From positions 1-64,000 of IMG/VR virus record IMGVR_UViG_3300017759_002599: a stretch of 64,000 bases of DNA. One strand, written 5' to 3'. The notes under the pieces were generated by a model. That model did no database searches. It was given only the letters and a program-made list of their open reading frames with translations, and was not told where the DNA came from. Origin of the DNA: a virus. Position 1 is the first letter of the stretch, and each line of letters begins with the position of its first letter. The position numbers and the translations under genes were made by a program. This document shows, piece by piece, positions 25,857-57,778 of this stretch.

Positions 25857-27101
25857 TCAGTTCTTACTTTTACATTCAAAGCAAGTGACTGTGGAATTGT
25901 CTGTACCAATCATGTAGATGTGGCGTACAGGTTTGTGCTTGCGACATACTGTACACTGCACAGTAGCCTCGTTGTCTTTCTTCGGTGGTGTGAATACCGA
26001 TGGCTTCAGACTCGTGCGCTCAACAAGACAGGATGCACAGGAGGTATCAGTCTCCTCAACATACATCTCACGTACGCTGAACTCACGGTCGCAGTCGTAG
26101 CAAATCTTCTTCTCTTTGGACTCACCCTCACGAGAGGTGTCGTAGTCACAGTCCATACAAATGCCATTGTCATCAATGTGCTTACCAAGACAAGCAGGGC
26201 AAGCATCCAGTTTCACATCTTCATGACCGCCAATAGTGTGACCACACACGCCACAATCACCATACTCGTAATCGGCTTGAATGAGTTTTGAGCCACAGCC
26301 TTCACAGATGTCCTGTGAACCTGTGGCCGAATCAAAATCTCCTTCGTCAGTGTCACCCCATTTACCACCCATCGTGTAGTCTTTGTAGACATTCGTGTAT
26401 TGACTGAACGTGTAGGTCGGCTTCTCAATCATGGCCTTACCAACAGGCAGGTCACACACATCAGCGATGTACTGCTGTTGCCCACTGGTTTCGACAGCGT
26501 GGTGGCAGTGTGCATCACGCACCCACTCGATAAGGTCAGCCGCACTTGTGTAGGAAGCACGCTCCTCTTGTGTAGCAGTGAGGTAGCGGAAGATACACAA
26601 CTGTACACCAGTGCGACCATGACCACCTGCACACTGTACAGATACACGAGTAAGTTGATGCTCACGAATGTCATCGACCAGTGCATACCAAAACAATGCA
26701 GGTGATGCAGGGATGCCGAAGTCGGGAAAGTCCAAGTGGATGAACAAAGGTTCAGGCTCGGACGAACCAATGTACTCGGCACACGAGAACCCATCGGGTA
26801 CAGTAGTGTCGTCTTTGGATGCAACACTACCATGCATGGTTTCGCTTGGACCCATCGCAAGGTCAGGTAGTGGTGACATCTTGTGCCACCCTCCTGCACG
26901 ATTCTTACCACCACCATAGAAGGTGATGCCATCGGCTGATGTGAAGATAGCCTCCTGTCCTGTGTGGCAGTTGTGCTTGCTCCATTTGTTCGTCGTTGTT
27001 GTTGTCTTGTCTGTCATCGGTTTCATATTTTTTCCCCCAGTATTTTTCTTGTTCTTTCGTTGTTGCTTTCGAGTCTTACGTTTGTTTCGTTTTCCCATCA
27101 T
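25857..27101 (-). CDS. PTP-like phosphatase fused to multiple zinc ribbons
   Basis: 414 residues. The first 20 are Lys/Arg-rich. Residues about 50-250 hold a phosphatase domain with QCAGGHGRTG (Cys157 to Arg163, C-x5-R loop). From about 265 to the end there are at least five CxxC-type pairs (CEGCG, CGVCG, CPACL, CMDCD, CYDCD, CASC, CTVC, CFEC), a tandem ribbon array. The start overlaps the stop of the PEP-synthase-like gene, so both are co-expressed. A zinc-array phosphatase is unusual; binding of nucleic acid or a protein substrate by the array is inferred. Confidence 0.72.
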   Translation of the reverse strand: MMGKRNKRKTRKQQRKNKKNTGGKNMKPMTDKTTTTTNKWSKHNCHTGQEAIFTSADGITFYGGGKNRAGGWHKMSPLPDLAMGPSETMHGSVASKDDTTVPDGFSCAEYIGSSEPEPLFIHLDFPDFGIPASPALFWYALVDDIREHQLTRVSVQCAGGHGRTGVQLCIFRYLTATQEERASYTSAADLIEWVRDAHCHHAVETSGQQQYIADVCDLPVGKAMIEKPTYTFSQYTNVYKDYTMGGKWGDTDEGDFDSATGSQDICEGCGSKLIQADYEYGDCGVCGHTIGGHEDVKLDACPACLGKHIDDNGICMDCDYDTSREGESKEKKICYDCDREFSVREMYVEETDTSCASCLVERTSLKPSVFTPPKKDNEATVQCTVCRKHKPVRHIYMIGTDNSTVTCFECKSKN

Positions 27102-37287: not shown

Positions 37288-38958
37288 ATGGTCGGAGCGA
37301 AGCCTGTACTTGTTCGCAAGCAACAGGCTCGTCTTAGTGACTTTTATCCAGTCACATTGCCTGAAGTACAAACAGCAACACAACAAATGCAAAACATACC
37401 TGCAACAACTCAAACCAAAGCAAGCAGTTGGCATCAGCATAACGAAGATTTAGAAAATAACGATGGAAACATCACAAATGTAAATCAAATTTATTATGAA
37501 CCAAGAGAAGGATATTTTCCTGAAGTTTCTCCACTGTCGGCTGAACAGCAATTAAACATGCATCTTGACGAGTTGCGAGCAAAAACCGAAAACCCTGAAG
37601 ATATTGTACAACAATTCATTGAAGACATGCGTAATGAAAAAAATGTTCACAATGTTCCTCGTAAATTGAGAGAACGTACAGAAAATGAACTATTGCGTAA
37701 TTTACGTCCGTTACCTGTAAGCGAAGTAAACGAAAAATTTGGTCGTATACGATTTCCAAGTAAAGAGTTTGCTAATGAAAACATACCTGAAAATATGGTT
37801 GATAGTTTGCGTCGTACTAAGCAATTCCGTGATTACTTTGGCCGTCAAACTACGTTGCCTGAACATTTTCCCTCATATCATACCGAAGATTGGCTTGACC
37901 CTGAAACCGGATTGGTGCGTGAAGGCGCAATAGCCCCTGTAACGGCTGTGCGTCGTGCAAATAGTCGTGACATTATGGGTGGTATGGCGCAAACGGGTGG
38001 TGGATTGATACCGCTTCCAAACAGTAGCAATGAAAGTTTTGAAAATCGAAATTCGGGTCGTCGCCCTATGCTTATGCAATCACAAAACCCACCCCTTGAA
38101 CACTTCCAAAGTGGGTACTTTTTGACTACACCATATGTTGCTGATTTAGACAGGTCTGTTACAGTCCACGATACAGATGCACTTATTGGGGTTCGTGGAT
38201 TTGGAGCACCGAGTGGTGATGTATTCCAAGCACGTCCAGCAGGTGAGGCAAAAGAGGGCGCAACGGAAGCCGTTGTACACAGTCGTATAGCCCCTGAACG
38301 GCTTGTACCTCTTCGATACAATGATTCGTATCAAAATTTGATAAGAGGAGATGAAAATAGTAAACCAAGTTTTCTTACGCTTAATGACATAAGAAATTTC
38401 TTTCGACCAAAAACATCACAGGATTTTCGTCAAGCCATAGGTCGAGAAAAAGATGATACAATATCACGTAATCAAAAATTTGACTACATTCGTGACCATT
38501 TACCGTTTATGCAGTTTGCTCCCCCTGAATTTAATGAAATGGTCGATAGGCATGGAATGCCGGCTGCGCTTACAGACGATGAAAAAAATCGTTTTTTAGA
38601 AGCAATGGAAGAAGAAGATAACAATTATCATAGAGATATGACAAATAAAAAACGTAAATTAGGAAATAAACTTGCCCTGATACGAAACTTGGGAGCAACT
38701 GATTGGTGGGACAGACCAGATAAGGGAGATGTGCTTACACTACGTGACCTAACCTTACCTTCAATATGGGGTGACCCAATGGCGGCATTGGCAAACGCAC
38801 CACCACACACTAAGGATGCACTTATTGAATTGTTCAACCACAGATTTAATACCAATTACCCAACCAACAAAAAATTGAAAGAAATGGAAGAATCAATAAT
38901 GCCTACCATTCCAAAAAAGAAGACACAATTTGAAGAACTAAATGAATTATTTGGATGA
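37288..38958 (+). CDS. Late hypothetical protein with two PIP-like peptides
   Basis: 556 residues starting MVGAKPVLVRK. QQARLSDFYP at the N-terminus and FGRQTTLPEHF near residue 185 both resemble PCNA-binding peptides. The rest is unrecognised: helical, with repeated Gly/Pro linkers. Start 36 bp from the divergent minus gene. Stop overlaps the next start (ATGA). Probably a virion-internal or assembly protein, by position. Confidence 0.65.
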   Translation: MVGAKPVLVRKQQARLSDFYPVTLPEVQTATQQMQNIPATTQTKASSWHQHNEDLENNDGNITNVNQIYYEPREGYFPEVSPLSAEQQLNMHLDELRAKTENPEDIVQQFIEDMRNEKNVHNVPRKLRERTENELLRNLRPLPVSEVNEKFGRIRFPSKEFANENIPENMVDSLRRTKQFRDYFGRQTTLPEHFPSYHTEDWLDPETGLVREGAIAPVTAVRRANSRDIMGGMAQTGGGLIPLPNSSNESFENRNSGRRPMLMQSQNPPLEHFQSGYFLTTPYVADLDRSVTVHDTDALIGVRGFGAPSGDVFQARPAGEAKEGATEAVVHSRIAPERLVPLRYNDSYQNLIRGDENSKPSFLTLNDIRNFFRPKTSQDFRQAIGREKDDTISRNQKFDYIRDHLPFMQFAPPEFNEMVDRHGMPAALTDDEKNRFLEAMEEEDNNYHRDMTNKKRKLGNKLALIRNLGATDWWDRPDKGDVLTLRDLTLPSIWGDPMAALANAPPHTKDALIELFNHRFNTNYPTNKKLKEMEESIMPTIPKKKTQFEELNELFG

Positions 38959-41945: not shown

Positions 41946-42070
41946 GTACTACTCTTAATTATTATATAATTGTAGTACCTATGAATAAATGACTATTGTA
42001 TTGGTCAATTTAATGACTATACCTGTGAATAAAGTGAATAAAGCGGTAAAGTGACCATAGCGAAACGTTT
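41946..42070 (+). promoter_or_regulatory. Control element B: TATA-like core and repeats shared with element A
   Basis: GTACTAC-18 nt-GTAGTAC brackets TTATATAAT (41962-41970). Then TATGAATAAATGACTATTG, TTGGTCAA, TGACTATACCTGTGAATAAA and GTGAATAAAGCGG follow, all with close matches at 33653-33780. It lies in the 159-bp gap before the GTPase cluster and probably holds its promoter. Confidence 0.65.
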
Positions 42071-42104
42071 ATGTTGCCCATTAATTTGACCAACAGTGAG
42101 AACG

Positions 42105-42632
42105 ATGCAGGGCAGTACTGAAAATTCGGACGCTGAAATACGACTGATGGGACTTATTTTGTCGCAATCCGCACTGGTTGGATTAGCAATTGGTATCTTT
42201 GACAAGGACATTTGGCTTAACCACGACGACCCAATGGTAAACGGTTTTACCTACGCAATGGCTGCATTTTTTGTACAAGGTATTGCATATTATTTCTTCA
42301 AGATGTTCTTTGAACAGAACATGCAAGAGCGTGTACGTATACAACAATCCGAGCGACAACGCCAAACTCGATACCGTTCATTGCAAACCAACTTCGATAA
42401 CCGTCGTGCCGACATGGAGTTGCGTATGCAAGAAGCGCAACTTGAACGTGAACTGCGATGGATGGAAGAAAACCCCGGTAAGATGCCTCCATCATGGGGC
42501 GTACAAGGTGGCTCCCCTTCATTGGTAAGCCAGTACGATGAAAATCAACTCAATGTATATCCTCCAAAACACGAGGCTATTGTAGATAAACCAATTAACT
42601 TGGGTATCAAAGAGGAAGAAAAGAAAGAGTGA
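42105..42632 (+). CDS. Two-span membrane protein with coiled coil
   Basis: 175 residues. Hydrophobic stretches LMGLILSQSALVGLAIGIF and TYAMAAFFVQGIAYYFFKMF form two membrane spans. Then a long charged coiled coil (RVRIQQSERQRQTRYRSLQ onward) extends about 70 residues. First gene after control element B, with two more membrane-related genes and a GTPase downstream. Confidence 0.75.
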   Translation: MQGSTENSDAEIRLMGLILSQSALVGLAIGIFDKDIWLNHDDPMVNGFTYAMAAFFVQGIAYYFFKMFFEQNMQERVRIQQSERQRQTRYRSLQTNFDNRRADMELRMQEAQLERELRWMEENPGKMPPSWGVQGGSPSLVSQYDENQLNVYPPKHEAIVDKPINLGIKEEEKKE

Positions 42633-42643
42633 GGTGAACCCGC

Positions 42644-42898
42644 ATGGGTCGCATATTCAAAACGCCAAGTGATGACAGCACCGAAGCCACACTTCGTGCC
42701 ATGCATACGCAAAACACACTTGACAATTATTACGAAAAAGGTTGGGGATGGCTTCGTACCTTACTGTTTACTTTATTTGCTATTTTAGCAACAAGCCTGT
42801 GGGAAAAACAAACAGATGCATCGGTATGGGACAACACCGTAAACTGGTTTGTAGGTAAAGTTGAAGACTTTGGTAACTGGGTTTTGGGGCTGTTCTAA
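42644..42898 (+). CDS. Single-span membrane protein
   Basis: 84 residues. LRTLLFTLFAILATSLW is a membrane span; the C-terminus VWDNTVNWFVGKVEDFGNWV is amphipathic. GAGGTGAACCCGC precedes the ATG. Its stop overlaps the GTPase start (TAATGG), so the two are coupled. Confidence 0.72.
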   Translation: MGRIFKTPSDDSTEATLRAMHTQNTLDNYYEKGWGWLRTLLFTLFAILATSLWEKQTDASVWDNTVNWFVGKVEDFGNWVLGLF

Positions 42899-43614
42899 TG
42901 GTAGACCCCGCAGGTTCAGCATTGGTCGGTGTCATGGTATGGGGTCAAGCCCTATACAACTCATGGCGACCACGACGTGTTGGAATCTATGGTGCTGGTA
43001 TGGTTGGAAAGACAACGCTTGACCGTTTTATGACAACGCCCGGCGAAATGGAAGACATATCTGAAGAAGAACGAACTATGCATCGTAAAATGCTTGGTAA
43101 GTACAAAATGCCAAAACCAACACGTAAGCGTGTAAGTTGGAAAGGACACAAGCGGGTTGTGTACTCTTCCGATGTAGGTGGACAGGAGCGTTTTTGGAAT
43201 CTTTGGATTGATGATATGGTTAATCGACAAGTTGAAGCGGTAGTTTACATGTTTGATGACCGAGCATTCAAAGGTGGTAATGACGCATTGCAACAAATTG
43301 CAGGTTTCAAATTCCTTGTTGATGCCATTCTTAATCGACAATACCGTTATCGTAACTGGAAAGCCCGACGTAAAGGTAAGAAGTACATGCCTAAACTGAT
43401 TATGTTGGTTGCAAACAAGGCTGACCGCTTTTTCGATGACACTGCCGCAATGTTATGGCAACAAGACCGTATAGGTGAACACAAGATATTCGACCCATTT
43501 CGAGATGATTTAATACGACTGCAACGTGGAGGTATACCTACACGACGGTCGTTTATGGCTACAAGAATAGGGTGGAACGTTGAAAACACAATGGTCGATT
43601 TATTGACAGCATAG
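42898..43614 (+). CDS. Ras/Arf-like small GTPase
   Basis: 238 residues. G1 GAGMVGKT (32-39), G3 DVGGQE (92-97), G4 NKAD (173-176) and a G5-like MATRIGWNVEN (220-230) are in the order and spacing of small GTPases. DxGGQE is closest to Arf/SRbeta types. The N-terminus (GSALVGVMVWGQAL) is hydrophobic and may anchor it to the membrane. The insertion between G1 and G3 is long and basic. It lies between membrane-protein genes and an AbrB-like regulator, so a membrane-remodelling, assembly or positioning role is inferred. No such GTPase is part of the standard tailed-virus set known to me. Confidence 0.85.
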   Translation: MVDPAGSALVGVMVWGQALYNSWRPRRVGIYGAGMVGKTTLDRFMTTPGEMEDISEEERTMHRKMLGKYKMPKPTRKRVSWKGHKRVVYSSDVGGQERFWNLWIDDMVNRQVEAVVYMFDDRAFKGGNDALQQIAGFKFLVDAILNRQYRYRNWKARRKGKKYMPKLIMLVANKADRFFDDTAAMLWQQDRIGEHKIFDPFRDDLIRLQRGGIPTRRSFMATRIGWNVENTMVDLLTA

Positions 43615-43622
43615 GTGAGAGC

Positions 43623-43787
43623 ATGACAAAAACAAACATTACGTCTGTAGGAAACAAAACACAAAGTCTACGTACGGTTATTCCGTTGTGGATTGTAAAA
43701 GTCTTGAAACTGTCAAAGGGTGACAAGATTGAATGGGATGTTGATGTACACAACAGTACGATTGAAATTAAGAAGGTGAAAGAATGA
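43623..43787 (+). CDS. AbrB/SpoVT-like DNA-binding protein
   Basis: 54 residues. SLRTVIPLWIVKVLKLSKGD and then IEWDVDVHNSTIEIKKV match the swapped-hairpin AbrB fold (R-x-x-IPx-x-xx...L-x-xGD). Archaeal genomes use such proteins as regulators or antitoxins. No toxin gene is adjacent, so a viral transcription regulator, perhaps for elements A and B, is favoured. Overlaps the next start. Confidence 0.8.
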   Translation: MTKTNITSVGNKTQSLRTVIPLWIVKVLKLSKGDKIEWDVDVHNSTIEIKKVKE

Positions 43788-44725
43788 GAATGGTGTTCGA
43801 TAACAACACAGGAATGCAACGATTGGGTAGTTCAAATGAAGCACACTTGTATGCACTTAGCCAACAGGGTAATGAATCGTTGAATTATGCTACACTTATG
43901 GAGCAAGCCACTGCACAATCGGCTATGCAACAAATTGCATCGGAGCAAAACCTTGAAGTTCCAAAAGTCAATTTTTATCCATCACGTCATCCTGACCCAC
44001 ACAAAGCACGACGCAAAGATATTCGTCAAGCACGTAAGTTACTTTCACCAGCAAAACGTGCATGGTTCAATCCTATGCGATGGTTGTTTGGACAAAAGTA
44101 CCGATACGACCGTCAAGCCAGTATGTGTGTTGTTGATGGATGCGACTGTGCGAAACTGATTCAACACGACAATTTGTACGCAAAAATTACTGATGAAGAA
44201 ACAGGATATTCATTATGGCAATTGTATTGGCAAAATCCTGTTACAAAAGAAGCCGAAGCGTTTGTTGCAAAAGAAAAAGTCATGAATGGACGTAAAATGA
44301 AAGGTACATACTGTCCTGAACATTTGCATTTGTATCATCTTCTCAACAGATGGGAAGCCGAAGAAGACAAGTTACGTGAAGCAAATCCACGTCGTCTACG
44401 TGACCGTGTAAAGAAAGGCGTGTCGATGGTGACTGTACCTGTTGCTACCATTAAGAAAAAAGACCCAACGCCTGAATTTTTGCAAAAGTACGAAGAGTTT
44501 TTTGCTATGCTTGAAAAAGACAGCAAAAGCACAAAAGGTATTTCAATTCTTAATTATGAAAATCCCGTTACTGGAATGAATGATGTAACAATGATTGTGT
44601 TTGACTTGCGAATTTTTCAACAAGAGTTGGCTATGATGAACCAACCAACCCCTGCTTTTCAAACAATTCTGAATCAACAGGTGCAACAAAACACTCTTGA
44701 AGAAGTACAACTTGGGGGAGAGTGA
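43784..44725 (+). CDS. Late hypothetical protein with zinc-binding residues
   Basis: 313 residues. A Cys/His group (CVVDGCDC and, about 75 residues on, CPEHLHLYH) may bind zinc. N-terminal Gln/Ala-rich region, central basic segment (RRLRDRVKKG). It belongs to the GTPase cluster; possibly a structural or assembly protein. GAAGGTGAAAGA precedes the ATG. Confidence 0.65.
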   Translation: MRMVFDNNTGMQRLGSSNEAHLYALSQQGNESLNYATLMEQATAQSAMQQIASEQNLEVPKVNFYPSRHPDPHKARRKDIRQARKLLSPAKRAWFNPMRWLFGQKYRYDRQASMCVVDGCDCAKLIQHDNLYAKITDEETGYSLWQLYWQNPVTKEAEAFVAKEKVMNGRKMKGTYCPEHLHLYHLLNRWEAEEDKLREANPRRLRDRVKKGVSMVTVPVATIKKKDPTPEFLQKYEEFFAMLEKDSKSTKGISILNYENPVTGMNDVTMIVFDLRIFQQELAMMNQPTPAFQTILNQQVQQNTLEEVQLGGE

Positions 44726-44730
44726 GTCTG

Positions 44731-45348
44731 ATGTTAAATCTTAATCAAAACACCAATGCCAACGGTGCGCTTAATCTTGGTGTAAACAGTGCTCAACCCG
44801 CTATGCAGACACAAAATCCATTTCTAAATCAGCAAGCACAAATGGGAGCACAGGGTGCGTTTATGACAGGTATGTTAGGCGACAATGCACAATACATGAA
44901 TCAACCTGTTATGCCTCCATCGGAAATTGAAATTCAAATTATGTTGTTGCGTGGTATTGTACCTGTAGACCGATTTGTAGCAAGTGAATCTATGGCAACA
45001 ATGGTACAAATGTTCAACGACCTTATGACGTTTAGTGTGCTTGAAGTATTCAAAAATGCAACCTTTATTCCTGATGATGATGGTAATCTCAAAATGGACA
45101 TTACATCATTGCCTTCTCATTTGCAAACTATGAGTTCAGATAACATTGCATCCAAGTTTACGGCTCTCCAAAGTACGGCCAATCAAAACATACAGACTGC
45201 TGAACAACAGCAAATGCAGTTGAATCAAATGGCACAACAATCTATGATGGGTGGAGCATTAAATGCGGCATTGCAAAATGAAGGCATGATGCAAAAAGTA
45301 GGTGGCGGTGTAGGTACATTCGCTCGTACACTCTTTACAGGACGATGA
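44731..45348 (+). CDS. Late Gln/Met-rich hypothetical protein
   Basis: 205 residues, start ATG 44731 or an overlapping GTG at 44722. An Asn/Gln-rich N-terminus, a helical middle (RFVASESMATMVQMFNDL) and a Gln/Met-rich tail. Composition is like phage assembly or scaffold proteins. No family. Confidence 0.62.
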   Translation: MLNLNQNTNANGALNLGVNSAQPAMQTQNPFLNQQAQMGAQGAFMTGMLGDNAQYMNQPVMPPSEIEIQIMLLRGIVPVDRFVASESMATMVQMFNDLMTFSVLEVFKNATFIPDDDGNLKMDITSLPSHLQTMSSDNIASKFTALQSTANQNIQTAEQQQMQLNQMAQQSMMGGALNAALQNEGMMQKVGGGVGTFARTLFTGR

Positions 45349-45352
45349 TACT

Positions 45353-45595
45353 ATGCAAGATAAGAATTACTTACCATACGGATTTTCAACCTCTTCGCTT
45401 AATGTCATGAACCCACCACGCAGTGTTATTATTGACATGATTATGGTGCAGTTCATTTCAATCATTTTAACAATGATTGCTATTATGCTGTTTAAGGGTA
45501 ATGAGTTGTCATCTACAACGTTGTCATACTTCCTTGTTGCTCTTTTCGGTAGTGTCTTGATGGTCACTGGAATCTATTCGAGAATCACTCGATAG
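45353..45595 (+). CDS. Two-span membrane protein
   Basis: 80 residues. VQFISIILTMIAIMLF and LSYFLVALFGSVLMVTGIY are two spans with a short loop. The C-terminal coding end overlaps a minus-strand gene by 72 nt. The last membrane protein of the cluster; holin-like architecture is possible but unproven. Confidence 0.68.
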   Translation: MQDKNYLPYGFSTSSLNVMNPPRSVIIDMIMVQFISIILTMIAIMLFKGNELSSTTLSYFLVALFGSVLMVTGIYSRITR

Positions 45596-45832
45596 TGTCC
45601 ACTTACGCAAAGGGCATGTAGAATTTTTCAATTTTAATTTTGTCTTAAGATAGCAACCACAGGCTGTGCATCGAGTACCAAAGTGTGGGCAAGGGCGACA
45701 TATGCGAAGTCGATGCAGTATTGTATCATCATCAGCGTAGTCTTTTCTTGATATGTCCTTCATGGCTTGCTTGATGCTTCTAAACGAATCGGTTGAGATT
45801 GGAACTCCAGCGATTCGTTTGTTCTTCCACAT
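45524..45832 (-). CDS. Minus-strand zinc-ribbon protein
   Basis: 102 residues starting MWKNKRIAGVPISTDSF behind GGAGAGGACT. CRPCPHFGTRCTACGCYLKT, then CPLRKW, matches a widespread phage ribbon family (C-x2-C...C-x2-C-G-C...CPxxKW). It converges on and overlaps the preceding plus-strand gene. Expression from the minus strand inside the late arm is unusual. Confidence 0.62.
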   Translation of the reverse strand: MWKNKRIAGVPISTDSFRSIKQAMKDISRKDYADDDTILHRLRICRPCPHFGTRCTACGCYLKTKLKLKNSTCPLRKWTLSSDSRIDSSDHQDTTEKSNKEV

Positions 45833-45892
45833 AGTCCTCTCCAAAGATACAATCACCATAATTGTTTTCAAAGGGTATGCCTTAAGACAGTC

Positions 45893-46573
45893 ATGGCGGA
45901 TGAGCGTGTTGTTAAACGTTCATGCGCTTTTTGCATGGATGAAGACCGTGAAGAGTTGGAAGAACAACTGCTTCAAGGCTACATTTCACCGAAGCAATTG
46001 GATAAGGATAAAGGGTGGAGGTCGAACACATCCGACCGTCATTATCGCAACCACATGGGTGAATATCACATAGCCGCAAATGCATCTTGTGCTGTATGTA
46101 CATCACCCCATCGAGCCGACTACGAAAGTATTTATTTTGCTGACGGCTCACAAAGTGAAGTTATTGCACAAGAATTGGGAATCAGTGAGAACTTAGTTTA
46201 CCAACACATGAAACATCATTTCCAACCACTGGTGCAAAAAACTGCGGCTCTTGAAATAGCGTCGTTTGCTGTCGGTAATGAATTGAACCTACTACGTAGC
46301 AATGCTGAACATTTGAATTTAAAACTAACAGAACTGTTGAACGAAGGCACTGTTCACGAAGATGGATTTGTTCGTGATGCGGTTTCTTTGCATAAGGAAG
46401 TAAGAGAAACTGTCAAAGACTTGATGCGTTTCCAAGACCAATGGGGTCCACAAGGTGAAACACAGCAAGTCAATCAAACATTCAATATTTTGCAGGTTGA
46501 ATTAAACAAGGAAAGTCCTGAAACGTGGGCAAGAATCAAAGCACAATTGCAAGAAAACATGGGGGTTGAATAA
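45893..46573 (+). CDS. HTH/zinc protein, candidate small terminase subunit
   Basis: 226 residues. Two short zinc knuckles (CAFCMDEDREELE and CAVCTSPHRADYE), then a helix-turn-helix SEVIAQELGISENLVYQHM, then a long helix with LHKEVRETVKDLM. The HTH plus oligomerising coiled coil resembles small terminase subunits, but the large subunit lies 5.3 kb away. A late transcription regulator is the alternative. Confidence 0.55.
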   Translation: MADERVVKRSCAFCMDEDREELEEQLLQGYISPKQLDKDKGWRSNTSDRHYRNHMGEYHIAANASCAVCTSPHRADYESIYFADGSQSEVIAQELGISENLVYQHMKHHFQPLVQKTAALEIASFAVGNELNLLRSNAEHLNLKLTELLNEGTVHEDGFVRDAVSLHKEVRETVKDLMRFQDQWGPQGETQQVNQTFNILQVELNKESPETWARIKAQLQENMGVE

Positions 46574-51832: not shown

Positions 51833-53314
51833 ATGAGCGAAGACATTCAAGCCTTCATTGATGAAATGGATGCGAAGATGTCGGCAAAGTCATTTCAATA
51901 CTTTTTTGAAAACATACTCGGATTTGATTACTCACATCATCACGAATGTTGGGATAAGGGATTGGAAGAAAACCGATACTACTGTGTCAAAGCAAGTCGT
52001 GACCACGGTAAGTCTGTTTTCTTTATGTCGTACGCTCTATGGATAGCGGCATTTCGACCCGGAACGCACATTATGATTTTTTCACACTCACTTGAACAGA
52101 CACTTGAGCACATGCGATTTATTCGCAACAACATTGAGTCAACATCTATTCTACGTGGTTTAATTCCACAAGGCCGACCATGGAGAAAGACATACTTTGA
52201 GTTTTCAAATGGAAGCCGTATGATGGCAAAGTCGGTCGGTGGAGGTACTCGTGGTTTCCACCCCGATGTGGTTGTATGTGACGATATTCTATGGGGTACT
52301 ACGGGTACTGAATTGCAACGTGCGGCTGATTGGTTTTACGGTGTTTTGCTTCCTGTACTGCACCACACTGGGCGCATGATGATTGTCGGTACGCCGTTTT
52401 CGTACAATGACTTGTATGCTGAACTTGAAGAAAGAGATGCTTTCACTGTTGAAACATACCCTGCTATCAATAACGAAGGAGTAGCATTGTGGCCTGAACG
52501 ATGGAATCTTGAGGCACTTGAACACAGAAGACTTTCTATGCCGGCTATTCAGTTTTCTCGTGAGTATCTTTGTGAACCAATTCACGATGTTGCGAGTATG
52601 TTTCCTAACGACATATTGGAGAAGGCTCGTGACAAAGACTTGGTTCTGCTCGACAGGGCTGAAACTGATTACAATGAAGAAGGTGAGCCTGTGGGAATCT
52701 TTGGACAACACTTCATCGGATGGGACACAGCAATTGCATCGGACAAGAACGCTGACTTTACAGCAATGATGGTGCTTCGTACACCTCCTAATGAGAATGT
52801 TAAGCAAATCGTAGGCATTGTACACGAGAAGGGATTGGGTGGTGCGGCTCAAAAGAAACATATTCTGTTGCTCAACAATCGCTTCAAGCCTGATTTGATT
52901 GAACTTGAAGGTAACAACTTTCAGCGTATGTTTGCGGCTGAACTCAAGGACATGCGTGACGACATTCCTATCAAGACATTTATGACAACTCGACAGCGCA
53001 AAGAAAGCATGTTCATGTCGTTGTTGATGGCATTTGAACAAGGACAAATTCGCACACCGTATGGTGATGAGCGCAGTCGTACTTTCACACATAAACTTGA
53101 ACAAGAACTCAATCGCTTCGGTATGCAAAAGAACGGTAAGTTGGAATCTGTTGGTACGCACGATGACTTGGCTATGGCATTAGCATTAGCCAACTGGGGT
53201 ACGAAAGAGTTCCGTGGCACAGTTGTCTTACTTGACGACTGGATGCCCGGATTTGGCGACTGGCTTGACAACACTGTGGGTGGTAAAAACACAGGTGGGT
53301 GGATGATACCATGA
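51833..53314 (+). CDS. terL: Large terminase subunit
   Basis: 493 residues. The ATPase part has a Walker A-like KASRDHGKS (53-61), Walker B VVVCDD (146-151) and a motif III-like IVGTPFSYND. The nuclease part has GWDTAIASDKNADFT (Asp298) and a late HDDLAMALALANWG. This is the motor that pumps DNA into the prohead and cuts concatemers. Full length. Starts four bases after the previous stop; its stop overlaps the next start. Confidence 0.95.
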   Translation: MSEDIQAFIDEMDAKMSAKSFQYFFENILGFDYSHHHECWDKGLEENRYYCVKASRDHGKSVFFMSYALWIAAFRPGTHIMIFSHSLEQTLEHMRFIRNNIESTSILRGLIPQGRPWRKTYFEFSNGSRMMAKSVGGGTRGFHPDVVVCDDILWGTTGTELQRAADWFYGVLLPVLHHTGRMMIVGTPFSYNDLYAELEERDAFTVETYPAINNEGVALWPERWNLEALEHRRLSMPAIQFSREYLCEPIHDVASMFPNDILEKARDKDLVLLDRAETDYNEEGEPVGIFGQHFIGWDTAIASDKNADFTAMMVLRTPPNENVKQIVGIVHEKGLGGAAQKKHILLLNNRFKPDLIELEGNNFQRMFAAELKDMRDDIPIKTFMTTRQRKESMFMSLLMAFEQGQIRTPYGDERSRTFTHKLEQELNRFGMQKNGKLESVGTHDDLAMALALANWGTKEFRGTVVLLDDWMPGFGDWLDNTVGGKNTGGWMIP

Positions 53315-54674: not shown

Positions 54675-55973
54675 ATGTGGGGTAGTGCATTTGTGGGCGA
54701 TACCTATGATGTGCCTATTCATTTTTCTGATGAGTTCTCCAACATGGTCGTCAAAGCCTTATCTCAACACCCACATTTTTCATATGAAAATTTACCAGTC
54801 GAAGTTTCTTCTACTTTAATGATTAAAGAAGATTTAAAGAAATACTCGTTTGCAAAAAACGGTGATGGGTGGCTTGAATCGACATGGGGTAAAAGTGCAA
54901 ACGATATTATTCGTGAGTGCCGTAAAGCCCGTCGTAACGATAAAGCCAACAAGCACCTGTATGATTCGATTATCACCGACGTGCGTATGCTCAAAGCAAT
55001 GGAAGTTGAAGCAACCATCAAACAATTGACTTGGGCTGACGGACTTGATGAAGTTATCAAAAGTTTAGGACTTAATGATAAGTTGCTAAAATCACTGCGA
55101 AAGTTTGGCGAAAGTCGTTCTGTGAGCCTACAAAAAGCGTGCCAACAATTTTTGAAAGCCAATACAGTTTTGAATTTACTTAATGATAAAGTGGACTGGA
55201 CACCCGAAGACCAAGAAGAATGGGTCAATGCTCACCAGTTGCAAAAAGATGCAAAGAAAATGTGGCGTAACGTACTCAAGCAAACAGATAATTTACCACA
55301 CGTTGATGTTCAAGCACTTGAGTTTGCATCCGATGTTTTGGAAAAAGAAGGTCCATTATCGAGTCGTGAACTTGTACGGCGAGGTGTAGGTCATCTTGAA
55401 AAAAACATGACCGTCAATAAAATGGCATCTTTGCTTAAATTATATGGTGAAGAATACGATGTTTACAAAGCCACGTCACGAAGTACGTACCTCAAGTTTG
55501 GTTCTCATGGATTGATTATCAAGGATATATGGGGCTACATGGCAGGTTCTCTTGATTCTGATGGTAGCATCTTTATTTCAGAACGTGGTGACCCTCGTGT
55601 AACATTTGTTGCCAGTGGAAACATGGGTAAGCAATTGTGTGAAGATTTGCAAAAGGCTGTTGGGTGTGGTCGATTAGTAACTGACCAAAAAGTTGCAAAG
55701 AACACACAAAAATCAATTCATCGGCTTATTTTTTCAGCCAAAGATGACATTCGGCACGTACTAAAACACTCTATGCCTCACATGCGTTTGAAAGACTTGC
55801 AAGCCAAAGCAATGCTCGCATACGTTGATGAAAAGGATAAACTGCGTAAGAATGAGTTGTATCAATTGGTGACATTTACCAATTGGAAAGACCATCAAAC
55901 CAAATCCGAATCGTTATTAAACAAATGGGGAGTAGACGCTGATACCATAGGTGGCTATGCGGAGGGATTGTGA
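54675..55973 (+). CDS. LAGLIDADG-domain protein
   Basis: 432 residues. The C-terminal about 150 carry IWGYMAGSLDSDGSIFIS (285-302), a single LAGLIDADG motif with both acidic residues. Residues 215-260 look like a winged helix (LEKEGPLSSRELVRRG). The N-terminal 200 are unrecognised. With one motif, an active nuclease would have to dimerise. It may be a domesticated homing endonuclease used in packaging, as it sits between terminase-linked genes and the portal, or a selfish element. GGAGAGGTCAAT precedes the ATG. Confidence 0.72.
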   Translation: MWGSAFVGDTYDVPIHFSDEFSNMVVKALSQHPHFSYENLPVEVSSTLMIKEDLKKYSFAKNGDGWLESTWGKSANDIIRECRKARRNDKANKHLYDSIITDVRMLKAMEVEATIKQLTWADGLDEVIKSLGLNDKLLKSLRKFGESRSVSLQKACQQFLKANTVLNLLNDKVDWTPEDQEEWVNAHQLQKDAKKMWRNVLKQTDNLPHVDVQALEFASDVLEKEGPLSSRELVRRGVGHLEKNMTVNKMASLLKLYGEEYDVYKATSRSTYLKFGSHGLIIKDIWGYMAGSLDSDGSIFISERGDPRVTFVASGNMGKQLCEDLQKAVGCGRLVTDQKVAKNTQKSIHRLIFSAKDDIRHVLKHSMPHMRLKDLQAKAMLAYVDEKDKLRKNELYQLVTFTNWKDHQTKSESLLNKWGVDADTIGGYAEGL

Positions 55974-57778
55974 TGGCGGAAGAACAAGGACGAATCTCAC
56001 GATTCCTATCGGCTATCGGAAGTCCATTCCGTCGTCGTGAGAGTCCCACACCAACTATGCCGCTTTGGTCAAGCGGTATTCAAGAACCTGTCATGGCGCA
56101 GGGTATTACGCTCCCTGCACTGTTTGCAGTAAGTAATGAATCACTTATTCTCCGTACTGTACTTTCAAAACTACGTCAAGAAATGTTTCGACGTGGGTAC
56201 TACTGGGAGAAGCGTTTTACTGTTAAATGCACAACGTGTGATGAAGAATATCAACAAGAGATGGAAACATGCAAAGAATGTGGCGGTGCTGTACGCAAAC
56301 CTGACATTGATGAATTAACATATCCGAAGTGGTTGTTTAAGCAAGAAAACAGCATGGAACAATCCTTCCACCATCTTCTTCACGAAGTCGAAAATGACCT
56401 CAACATTATTGATGATGCATTTTTGATTTTAGTAAAAGAGTATTTTATTGACCCTGAAACCAAAGAAGTACAATTTTATCGAGTCAAAGAAATGGTACGT
56501 GGTGACCCTATTTTCATGCGTATTGTTGCTGATAAGCGTGGTGTACGTGGTGGACGATACAAAACCTGTTTGATACACCGTGACCAAGTTAAAACCCATG
56601 CTGAAAATGATACGTGTGAGATATGTGGTTCCGACTTACATGATGTCCATTACGTCAATATGGCGGGTAGCGGTAAGACCCAGTACTTTGTTGAAGGAGA
56701 AGTACTGCATGTTTCAAAATACAATCCATCAAAATTGTACGGTCGCTCTCCTGTCAATACAATGTGGCGACAAGCCATGACATTGACGGCAATGGACAAC
56801 TACATTTACACGGCATATCAAAAACGCCGTATTCCAAAGGGTGTCATATCTGTTACAACAGACAACCTTGAATCTATGAAGGCGTTTTGGAAGGCCACTG
56901 ATGAGAAATTGGAACGTGACCCACACTACATTCCTCGTGTTGGTATCGAGTCACAATCAGGTCGTGGTGGTGTTAATTGGATTAAATTCATGGACACGCT
57001 TGAAGAAATGCAGTATATCGCTGTACGTGACGAAATACGTAATCGTATAGCGGCTTTCTATGGTGTATCATCAATCTTTATGGTTGATAACGGTAAGTCG
57101 GGTGGTCTAAACAACGAAGGTTTGCAAATTCTTGTCACTAATCGTGCTGTTGAGTTTGGTCAAAAAGTGTACACAGAAGTATTGTTCCCACGTCTACTTC
57201 GTCAAATGAACATTCATGATTGGAAACTCACACTTTATCCAAACGAAGAAGAAGATGAAATTACACGTCTACGACGAGATGAACAAGAACTCAACGTCGC
57301 ACAACGCATGGCACAACTTGGATTCCAACCTGAACTTTTGGAAGACCCATCAAACCGTGATGTACGATTTGTGTATCGTAAACCACCTCCACCTCCAGCA
57401 CCCGGCGGTGCGCCTCCACCCGGCGGTGCGCCTCCACCCGGTGGAGGTATGCCACCACAGATGATGGGTGGTCGAGGTATGCCACCAATGCCACCCGGTG
57501 GAGGTATGCCACCACAGATGATGGGTGGAATGCCACCGCAAATGATGGGCGGAATGCCACCACAATCACGACAACTCCCACCCGGTATTGCACCGCCACT
57601 TCAACCCGGTAGTGAAGGAAGAGGTATACGTAACCGTGGTCCAGTAGCACCACAACGACGTGGTACAATGGGAAGCGGTTCACCAATTTCAAGCGTTCAA
57701 CAACGTGGTCCCGAACCTTCTATGATGCAAAATGTTTCAAACGCATTATTGAATGCTCGTAGACCAAGAGGGCGGTAA
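55973..57778 (+). CDS. Portal protein with two zinc-ribbon insertions
   Basis: 601 residues. VEGEVLHVSKYNPSKLYGRS, RRIPKGVISVTTDN and FYGVSSIFMVDNGKSGGLNN are typical portal segments, and the gene lies in the packaging cluster. Two insertions carry CTTCDE...CKECGG (Cys86-103) and CLIH...CEICGS (about 203-221). The C-terminal about 110 residues are PPGGGMPPQMMGG repeats, probably disordered. It forms the twelve-fold DNA entry ring. The start overlaps the preceding stop (TGATG). Confidence 0.85.
   Translation: MAEEQGRISRFLSAIGSPFRRRESPTPTMPLWSSGIQEPVMAQGITLPALFAVSNESLILRTVLSKLRQEMFRRGYYWEKRFTVKCTTCDEEYQQEMETCKECGGAVRKPDIDELTYPKWLFKQENSMEQSFHHLLHEVENDLNIIDDAFLILVKEYFIDPETKEVQFYRVKEMVRGDPIFMRIVADKRGVRGGRYKTCLIHRDQVKTHAENDTCEICGSDLHDVHYVNMAGSGKTQYFVEGEVLHVSKYNPSKLYGRSPVNTMWRQAMTLTAMDNYIYTAYQKRRIPKGVISVTTDNLESMKAFWKATDEKLERDPHYIPRVGIESQSGRGGVNWIKFMDTLEEMQYIAVRDEIRNRIAAFYGVSSIFMVDNGKSGGLNNEGLQILVTNRAVEFGQKVYTEVLFPRLLRQMNIHDWKLTLYPNEEEDEITRLRRDEQELNVAQRMAQLGFQPELLEDPSNRDVRFVYRKPPPPPAPGGAPPPGGAPPPGGGMPPQMMGGRGMPPMPPGGGMPPQMMGGMPPQMMGGMPPQSRQLPPGIAPPLQPGSEGRGIRNRGPVAPQRRGTMGSGSPISSVQQRGPEPSMMQNVSNALLNARRPRGR

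Follow-up and report, generated by a model that had tools for sequence, protein, structure and literature searches.

The 64 kilobase (kb) window that we analysed, out of the 71.3 kb IMG/VR virus record IMGVR_UViG_3300017759_002599, carries an operon in which a small GTPase is encoded together with three membrane proteins. Motifs and predicted fold confirm that the open reading frame (ORF) at 42898-43614 (+) encodes a genuine, divergent Ras-superfamily GTPase, for which GTP binding and hydrolysis are predicted, and the gene is under purifying selection and strictly co-occurs with the operon. We treat the genome as that of a magrovirus-like tailed virus of marine archaea, an assignment set by gene content and the description of the International Committee on Taxonomy of Viruses (ICTV). 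The reading that we favor, at a probability of roughly 40%, is that the operon makes a GTP switch specific to the virus, docked at the membrane and active while virions are made, most likely for their release.

Identity of the GTPase

The GTPase is 238 amino acids long, with a hydrophobic N-terminal helix and inserts around switch I and between beta4 and beta5. It holds G1 (GAGMVGKT, residues 32-39), G3 (DVGGQ, 92-96), G4 (NKAD, 173-176) and a G5-like MAT (220-222). Shuffling the protein gave G1, G3 and G4 in this order in 19 of 200,000 cases, but better evidence for the motifs comes from the conservation of the family. Across 112 distinct relatives there is no variation at G37, K38, T39, T40, T60, D92, G95, N173, K174, A175, D176, M220, A221 or T222, and G3 takes the form DxGG or DxAG. 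Position 96, which is the catalytic Gln in Ras, is Q in 53 of these relatives, E in 43, D in 15 and H in 1, with at least 11 changes on the family tree. When the single sequence is compared to Pfam the best model is Roc, which is below threshold (E=0.0024, 18.5 bits against a cut-off of 27); Roc is also matched by 38 of 50 relatives, while the Rag, MMR_HSR1, Ras and Arf models match fewer. The AlphaFold2 model has a predicted local distance difference test score of 73 and a predicted TM-score (pTM) of 0.74, with the P-loop region at low confidence (37-52). The top 50 matches in a PDB fold search with this model all belong to the Ras superfamily, the best being Rab33 (E=1.7e-7, probability 1.00), at TM-scores that are moderate (about 0.4-0.6), as the inserts and the weak P-loop region would lead one to expect. 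A helix at residues 4-23 is predicted, hydrophobic and conserved.

The search for cellular relatives covered 84,980 bacterial and archaeal species and gave 2 matches only, although such a search needs close similarity and misses distant relatives. Both matches sit on contigs of 8-9 kb that bear the entire viral block and are thus mis-binned virus, so that a recent origin of the GTPase from a host gene is unsupported. Two public contigs from metagenome-assembled genomes (MAGs), L134 (NZMJ01000140.1) and L135 (JABLTJ010000060.1), labelled Maricaulis and Asgard, are magrovirus-like sequence.

To place the protein we used a comparison set of Ras-like, Arf-like, Rag-like and ArvA proteins, the phylum being that of the MAG labelled Asgard. 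Local profile comparison gave 97.3% for the viral family against Ras-like, 96.4% against Arf and 96.0% against Rag, and the match to the archaeal Ras-like profile spans G1 to G4. ArvA reached 91.8% in a match confined to 38 columns by the P-loop (residues 24-61). The E-values are about 1e-11 for viral against Ras and about 1e-30 for Ras against Arf. Since the cellular families match one another far better than the virus matches any of them, the profiles point to a separate branch and place the viral GTPase outside the Ras, Arf and Rag families yet nearest to them. The original prediction of a Ras/Arf-like GTPase, with G1, a DxGGQE form of G3, G4 and a G5-like motif, therefore stands for the motifs and the Ras-type fold, which was also the sole outcome of the fold search that it had proposed as a check, but not for a fixed Gln or for a specifically Arf-like protein.

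Layout and conservation of the operon

The six core genes follow in the order 42096, 42644, GTPase, 43784, 44722 and 45353 (the neighbors of the GTPase are named by their first nucleotide). Their gaps are shorter than 20 nucleotides in 130/132, 133/134, 134/134 and 134/134 loci at four core junctions, and the final base of the 42644 gene doubles as the first of the GTPase start codon. The survey reached relatives down to roughly 60% identity, short of the deeper magrovirus families. Among them about 129 distinct contigs (133-135 of 135 loci) have the operon with its order and strand unchanged, which bears out the expectation, raised as a neighborhood check, that the GTPase would always stand beside the membrane genes. 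When the search started instead from the large terminase (TerL), 39 loci had 9.5 kb or more of upstream sequence, and 38 of them contained the GTPase. The apparent loss in the last one, L218, was rejected, as the gene lies just past the 10 kb cut, so all 39 are positive.

Selection was assessed by the ratio of nonsynonymous to synonymous rates (dN/dS), which is rough here because dS is high (about 1.2). The GTPase has a median of 0.165 and 43784 one of 0.17; the membrane proteins and 44722 span 0.24-0.46, and a gene resembling a small terminase (TerS) stands at 0.09. By mean amino-acid distance over eight genes TerL is the most constant (0.315) and the GTPase comes second (0.398), so that by this measure no other gene of the operon evolves as slowly. 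Such constancy makes it unlikely that the gene is a dispensable accessory.

The transmembrane segments of the neighboring proteins were called by family-average hydropathy, and on this measure the three membrane proteins named by the original prediction were upheld, with two, one and two hydrophobic segments. Membrane protein 1 (42096-42632 (+), 178 amino acids, found in 133 of 135 loci) may start at the GTG at 42096 or at the ATG at 42105; its hydrophobic segments are at residues 19-35 and 56-72 and its tail is conserved, charged and coiled-coil-like (RRxxMExRMQEAQLExELRW). Membrane protein 2 (42644-42898 (+), 84 amino acids) was found in all 134 loci with room for it. It combines a conserved N-terminal IFKTPxDDSxExTLRAMH with one hydrophobic segment (37-53) and a Trp-rich C-terminus that looks amphipathic. 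Membrane protein 3 (45353-45595 (+), 80 amino acids) has strong transmembrane segments at 30-46 and 58-74 and a basic C-terminus. Two segments are seen in 105 of 109 family members, with family-average hydropathy of 2.71 and 1.92, and in size and topology the protein looks like a class-II or small holin; compared to holin families it has no Pfam or PHROG match.

The 43784 product (43784-44725 (+), 313 amino acids, 135 of 135 loci) resembles a zinc-site protein, with C115, C177, H180, H182 and H185 invariant and C120 nearly so; its structural model is poor (pTM 0.43) and had no significant match in a fold search. The 44722 product (44722-45348 (+), 208 amino acids) is rich in Gln, Met and Asn and fast evolving. 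Directly behind the GTPase lies a small gene (43623-43787 (+), 54 amino acids) which had been predicted as an AbrB-like regulator in the operon. An AbrB/MazE-like DNA-binding identity is plausible but weak (Pfam MazE_antitoxin, E=4.2e-4, 20.6 bits against a cut-off of 24.7), and the gene is an optional extra, confined to one clade, that adjoins 78 of the 112 GTPases and accounts for a single change on their tree.

The operon seems to form a transcription unit of its own, headed by a promoter-like site. This region (42030-42095 (+), GCGAAACGTTTATGTTG) resembles a B recognition element with a TATA box and lies directly 5' of the first gene, the start of which is likely near-leaderless. A TATA-like box is found 20-70 nucleotides upstream in 69 of 112 relatives as compared to 24 +/- 3.4 in shuffles, in agreement with the control element predicted ahead of the cluster, and the motif G[CA]GAAA..TTA occurs once in the window, at this promoter region. 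At the other end, a gap with a median of 258 nucleotides separates the operon from the next unit, which opens with a possible TerS: a Cys-rich, helix-turn-helix-like protein (45893-46573 (+)) with weak helix-turn-helix and TerS matches, outside the GTPase operon. The operon precedes the arm of TerS, TerL, portal, protease and major capsid protein (MCP). Between operon and TerS-like gene there is also a minus-strand ORF (45524-45871 (-)), with relatives in 82 loci.

What the operon may do for the virus

A 2015 review notes that nobody had put forward a molecular mechanism by which archaeal viruses would disrupt the membrane completely, and that most of them must exit by an as yet unknown route (PMC4456609). 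If our reading holds, magrovirus-like viruses may use the operon to affect the host membrane, for instance when they leave the cell. In the mechanism that we propose the GTPase would cycle between its GDP and GTP states and would contact the cytoplasmic membrane by means of its own hydrophobic N-terminal helix together with conserved cytosolic stretches of 42096 and 42644. With its membrane hairpin and conserved charged tail 42096 is of a type that GTPases often have as partners and would be a likely coiled-coil effector or receptor, 42644 would be the anchor, and the zinc-site-like 43784 may regulate the GTPase. Most likely the GTPase would time or drive a remodelling of the host membrane, or its opening, so that virions are released; the holin-sized, two-segment 45353 could be the part that opens the membrane. 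We infer, in this proposal, expression late in infection, hydrolysis of GTP, contact between the proteins, action on the membrane and egress, and the role in assembly, egress or positioning at the host membrane that the original prediction suggested is likewise hypothetical. The points in favor of this proposal are the predicted GTPase fold with its invariant nucleotide-site residues, the tight operon with three membrane proteins in constant order, the presence of the GTPase at all 39 TerL loci, its low dN/dS and small amino-acid distance, its hydrophobic N-terminal helix, the holin-like 45353 and the precedent of ArvA, a small GTPase that drives membrane budding in Euryarchaeota (PMC10927574).

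There are also points that weigh against it. In about half of the family E or D takes the place of the catalytic Gln known from Ras, and for this reason GTP hydrolysis may be weak or differently catalysed; in the half without Gln, catalysis may come from another residue or be supplied in trans by a partner. The N-terminal helix is just mildly amphipathic (moment 0.23 against 0.16 +/- 0.08 when shuffled), and the membrane proteins of the operon match no known holin or membrane-remodelling family. The present evidence fits egress, entry and use in the virion alike. We are more doubtful of the wider claim that a whole abundant marine lineage of tailed archaeal viruses relies on its own Ras-type GTPase and dedicated transmembrane partners to remodel or open the host membrane for release, which would be the first egress driven by a GTP switch in prokaryotic viruses.

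Use in the virion is unlikely in our estimate. The membrane proteins and the GTPase would be in or on the particle, aiding delivery of the genome through the host membrane or anchoring capsid or tail assembly at the membrane. Tailed phages use membrane-active virion proteins in ejection, and the operon stands ahead of TerL, portal, protease and MCP and is co-inherited with TerL (distance correlation 0.83). However, it appears to be transcribed from its own promoter-like site, Druskaviridae build tailed virions without any such operon, and we know of no virion GTPase. Somewhat less likely again is a role in host subversion, with the GTPase mimicking or titrating a host small GTPase or its regulators and thereby blocking vesiculation, division, polarity or superinfection. 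Both its Ras-type fold and its motifs, which resemble those of cellular GTPases, would suit such a role, as would the service of ArvA to vesicles in Euryarchaeota (PMC10927574), but kinship to ArvA is not close, the match being limited to the P-loop region, and the strong conservation of this GTPase and its strict linkage to virus-specific membrane genes set it apart from the usual accessory genes of host interaction.

The GTPase could instead act in the cytosol, as a checkpoint or chaperone of head assembly or of packaging, with the membrane genes an unrelated lysis set that shares its operon. A GTPase one unit ahead of the packaging genes, evolving nearly as slowly as TerL, is compatible with this idea, which we nonetheless consider improbable given that the gene always follows two membrane genes at gaps of a few bases and that its product has a hydrophobic N-terminal helix. 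Hardly credible at all is that the protein is not a GTPase, that is another P-loop NTPase or a product of chance motifs. The Pfam scores below the cut-off and the low confidence of the modelled P-loop would allow it, yet none of 112 sequences departs from NKAD or DxxG, the fold matches are Ras-type GTPases throughout, and the match to the archaeal Ras-like profile is 97% over G1-G4. The membrane-docked switch for virion release thus remains the reading that we prefer, and since the operon is conserved, small and lineage-wide it offers a defined set of six genes for testing it.

Viral affiliation and comparison with known systems

The left arm of the genome, on the minus strand, encodes a family B DNA polymerase (PolB) and an SNF2-type helicase. 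The right arm, on the plus strand, has TerL (51833-53314 (+), phrog_38, E=4e-63), then the portal (55970-57778 (+)), with an S78 prohead protease and an SU10-type MCP past the end of the window. The closest annotated relatives of the portal are in Druskaviridae (HCTV-5, about 30% identity) and those of PolB include Druskaviridae, which fits the ICTV description of Magrovirales and is why we use the magrovirus-like label. PolB, divergent replication and virion arms, an HK97-fold MCP, protease, TerL, portal and relatedness to Druskaviridae are the Magrovirales traits found here, and they agree with the placement of the cluster, in the original prediction, in the late arm of a tailed archaeal virus. 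Magroviruses rank among the most abundant marine viruses (PMC10160649).

Some other features of the genome are recorded here. The peptide EPMxxAxxxLLK (e.g. SEPMDGAWSSLLK and GEPMDLAIDALLK) recurs in different late proteins (39660, 40461, 41010, 46966 and 47233, all (+)), with 87 plus-strand and 0 minus-strand matches in related loci, and looks like a docking, targeting or processing signal. A late ORF of 1933 amino acids (59083-64884 (+)), which ends beyond the window, has by eye a DNA-ligase-like stretch (KWYDGKR...YAIDGIMG) near its C-terminus and no Pfam match. At 37288-38958 (+) a motif of ADP-ribosyltransferase type (EAVVHSRIAPERLVPL) was seen by eye; HCTV-5 has an annotated ADP-ribosyltransferase after its portal. 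In the replication arm, 25857-27101 (-) encodes a protein-tyrosine-phosphatase-like protein (Pfam Y_phosphatase, 21.0 bits).

Among viruses, the closest system in layout is HCTV-5, which shares the divergent arms, PolB and the TerL-portal order but has no homologue of any gene of the GTPase operon and no ORF with the G1-G3-G4 spacing. The absence of the whole operon there suggests that it was gained in the magrovirus line, or lost in Druskaviridae. A known counterpart in prokaryotic viruses was sought and none found: tblastn with the GTPase gave no relative among 50,697 phage records, and the 26 matches at E<=0.001 in a BFVD fold search come from giant eukaryotic viruses, where the proteins are called Rab, Ran or Ras. 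These are likewise virus-encoded small GTPases, but of eukaryotic type, whereas here the GTPase is a core gene of the lineage in an operon with membrane proteins. The magrovirus literature that we searched makes no mention of a GTPase, although a supplementary table might still list one, and a general literature search on small GTPases of phages and archaeal viruses returned nothing relevant. As far as these searches reach, the view that the GTPase stands outside the known head-tail toolkit was borne out, and the operon, which is absent from the magrovirus descriptions searched, is a candidate core marker of magroviruses.

Among cellular systems, the Asgard Ras, Arf and Rag GTPases have the same layout of G1, DxxG-type G3 and NKxD, but the viral protein differs in its long inserts, its G5-like MAT and the Gln that is not fixed. 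MglA and Rup are, like it, prokaryotic switches of the Ras superfamily. MglA has TVPGQ or GTPGQ as G3 (PMC4316618), in contrast to the invariant G3 Asp of the viral family, and with DxGG or DxAG in this place and no Pfam match to an MglB/Roadblock partner among the neighbors we do not count the viral protein as an MglA. Group 1 Rup GTPases, likened here by description and not by sequence, also lack the G3 Gln (PMC4316618), and catalysis by a partner in trans has been proposed for them.

The most instructive comparison is to the archaeal vesiculating operon ArvA/ArvB/ArvC (OapABC), in which ArvB and ArvC are DUF2073 and DUF2072 proteins (PMC10927574). ArvA and the viral protein are both small GTPases in a conserved archaeal operon, each with an N-terminal helix that presumably contacts the membrane, and each operon has one zinc-type partner protein. 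Membership in ArvA was nevertheless rejected: its G3 is DxPG (D, P and G invariant in the 14 homologues sampled) as opposed to DxGG/DxAG, no neighbor of the viral GTPase has a Pfam match to DUF2073 (arvB) or DUF2072 (arvC), and the profile match is limited to the P-loop region. By analogy the viral GTPase, though not an ArvA, may work in a similar way. It adds to the Ras superfamily a virus-only branch outside eukaryotes and their viruses; the type of machine is known from cells, while its place in a core operon of tailed archaeal viruses is, within the reach of our searches, new.

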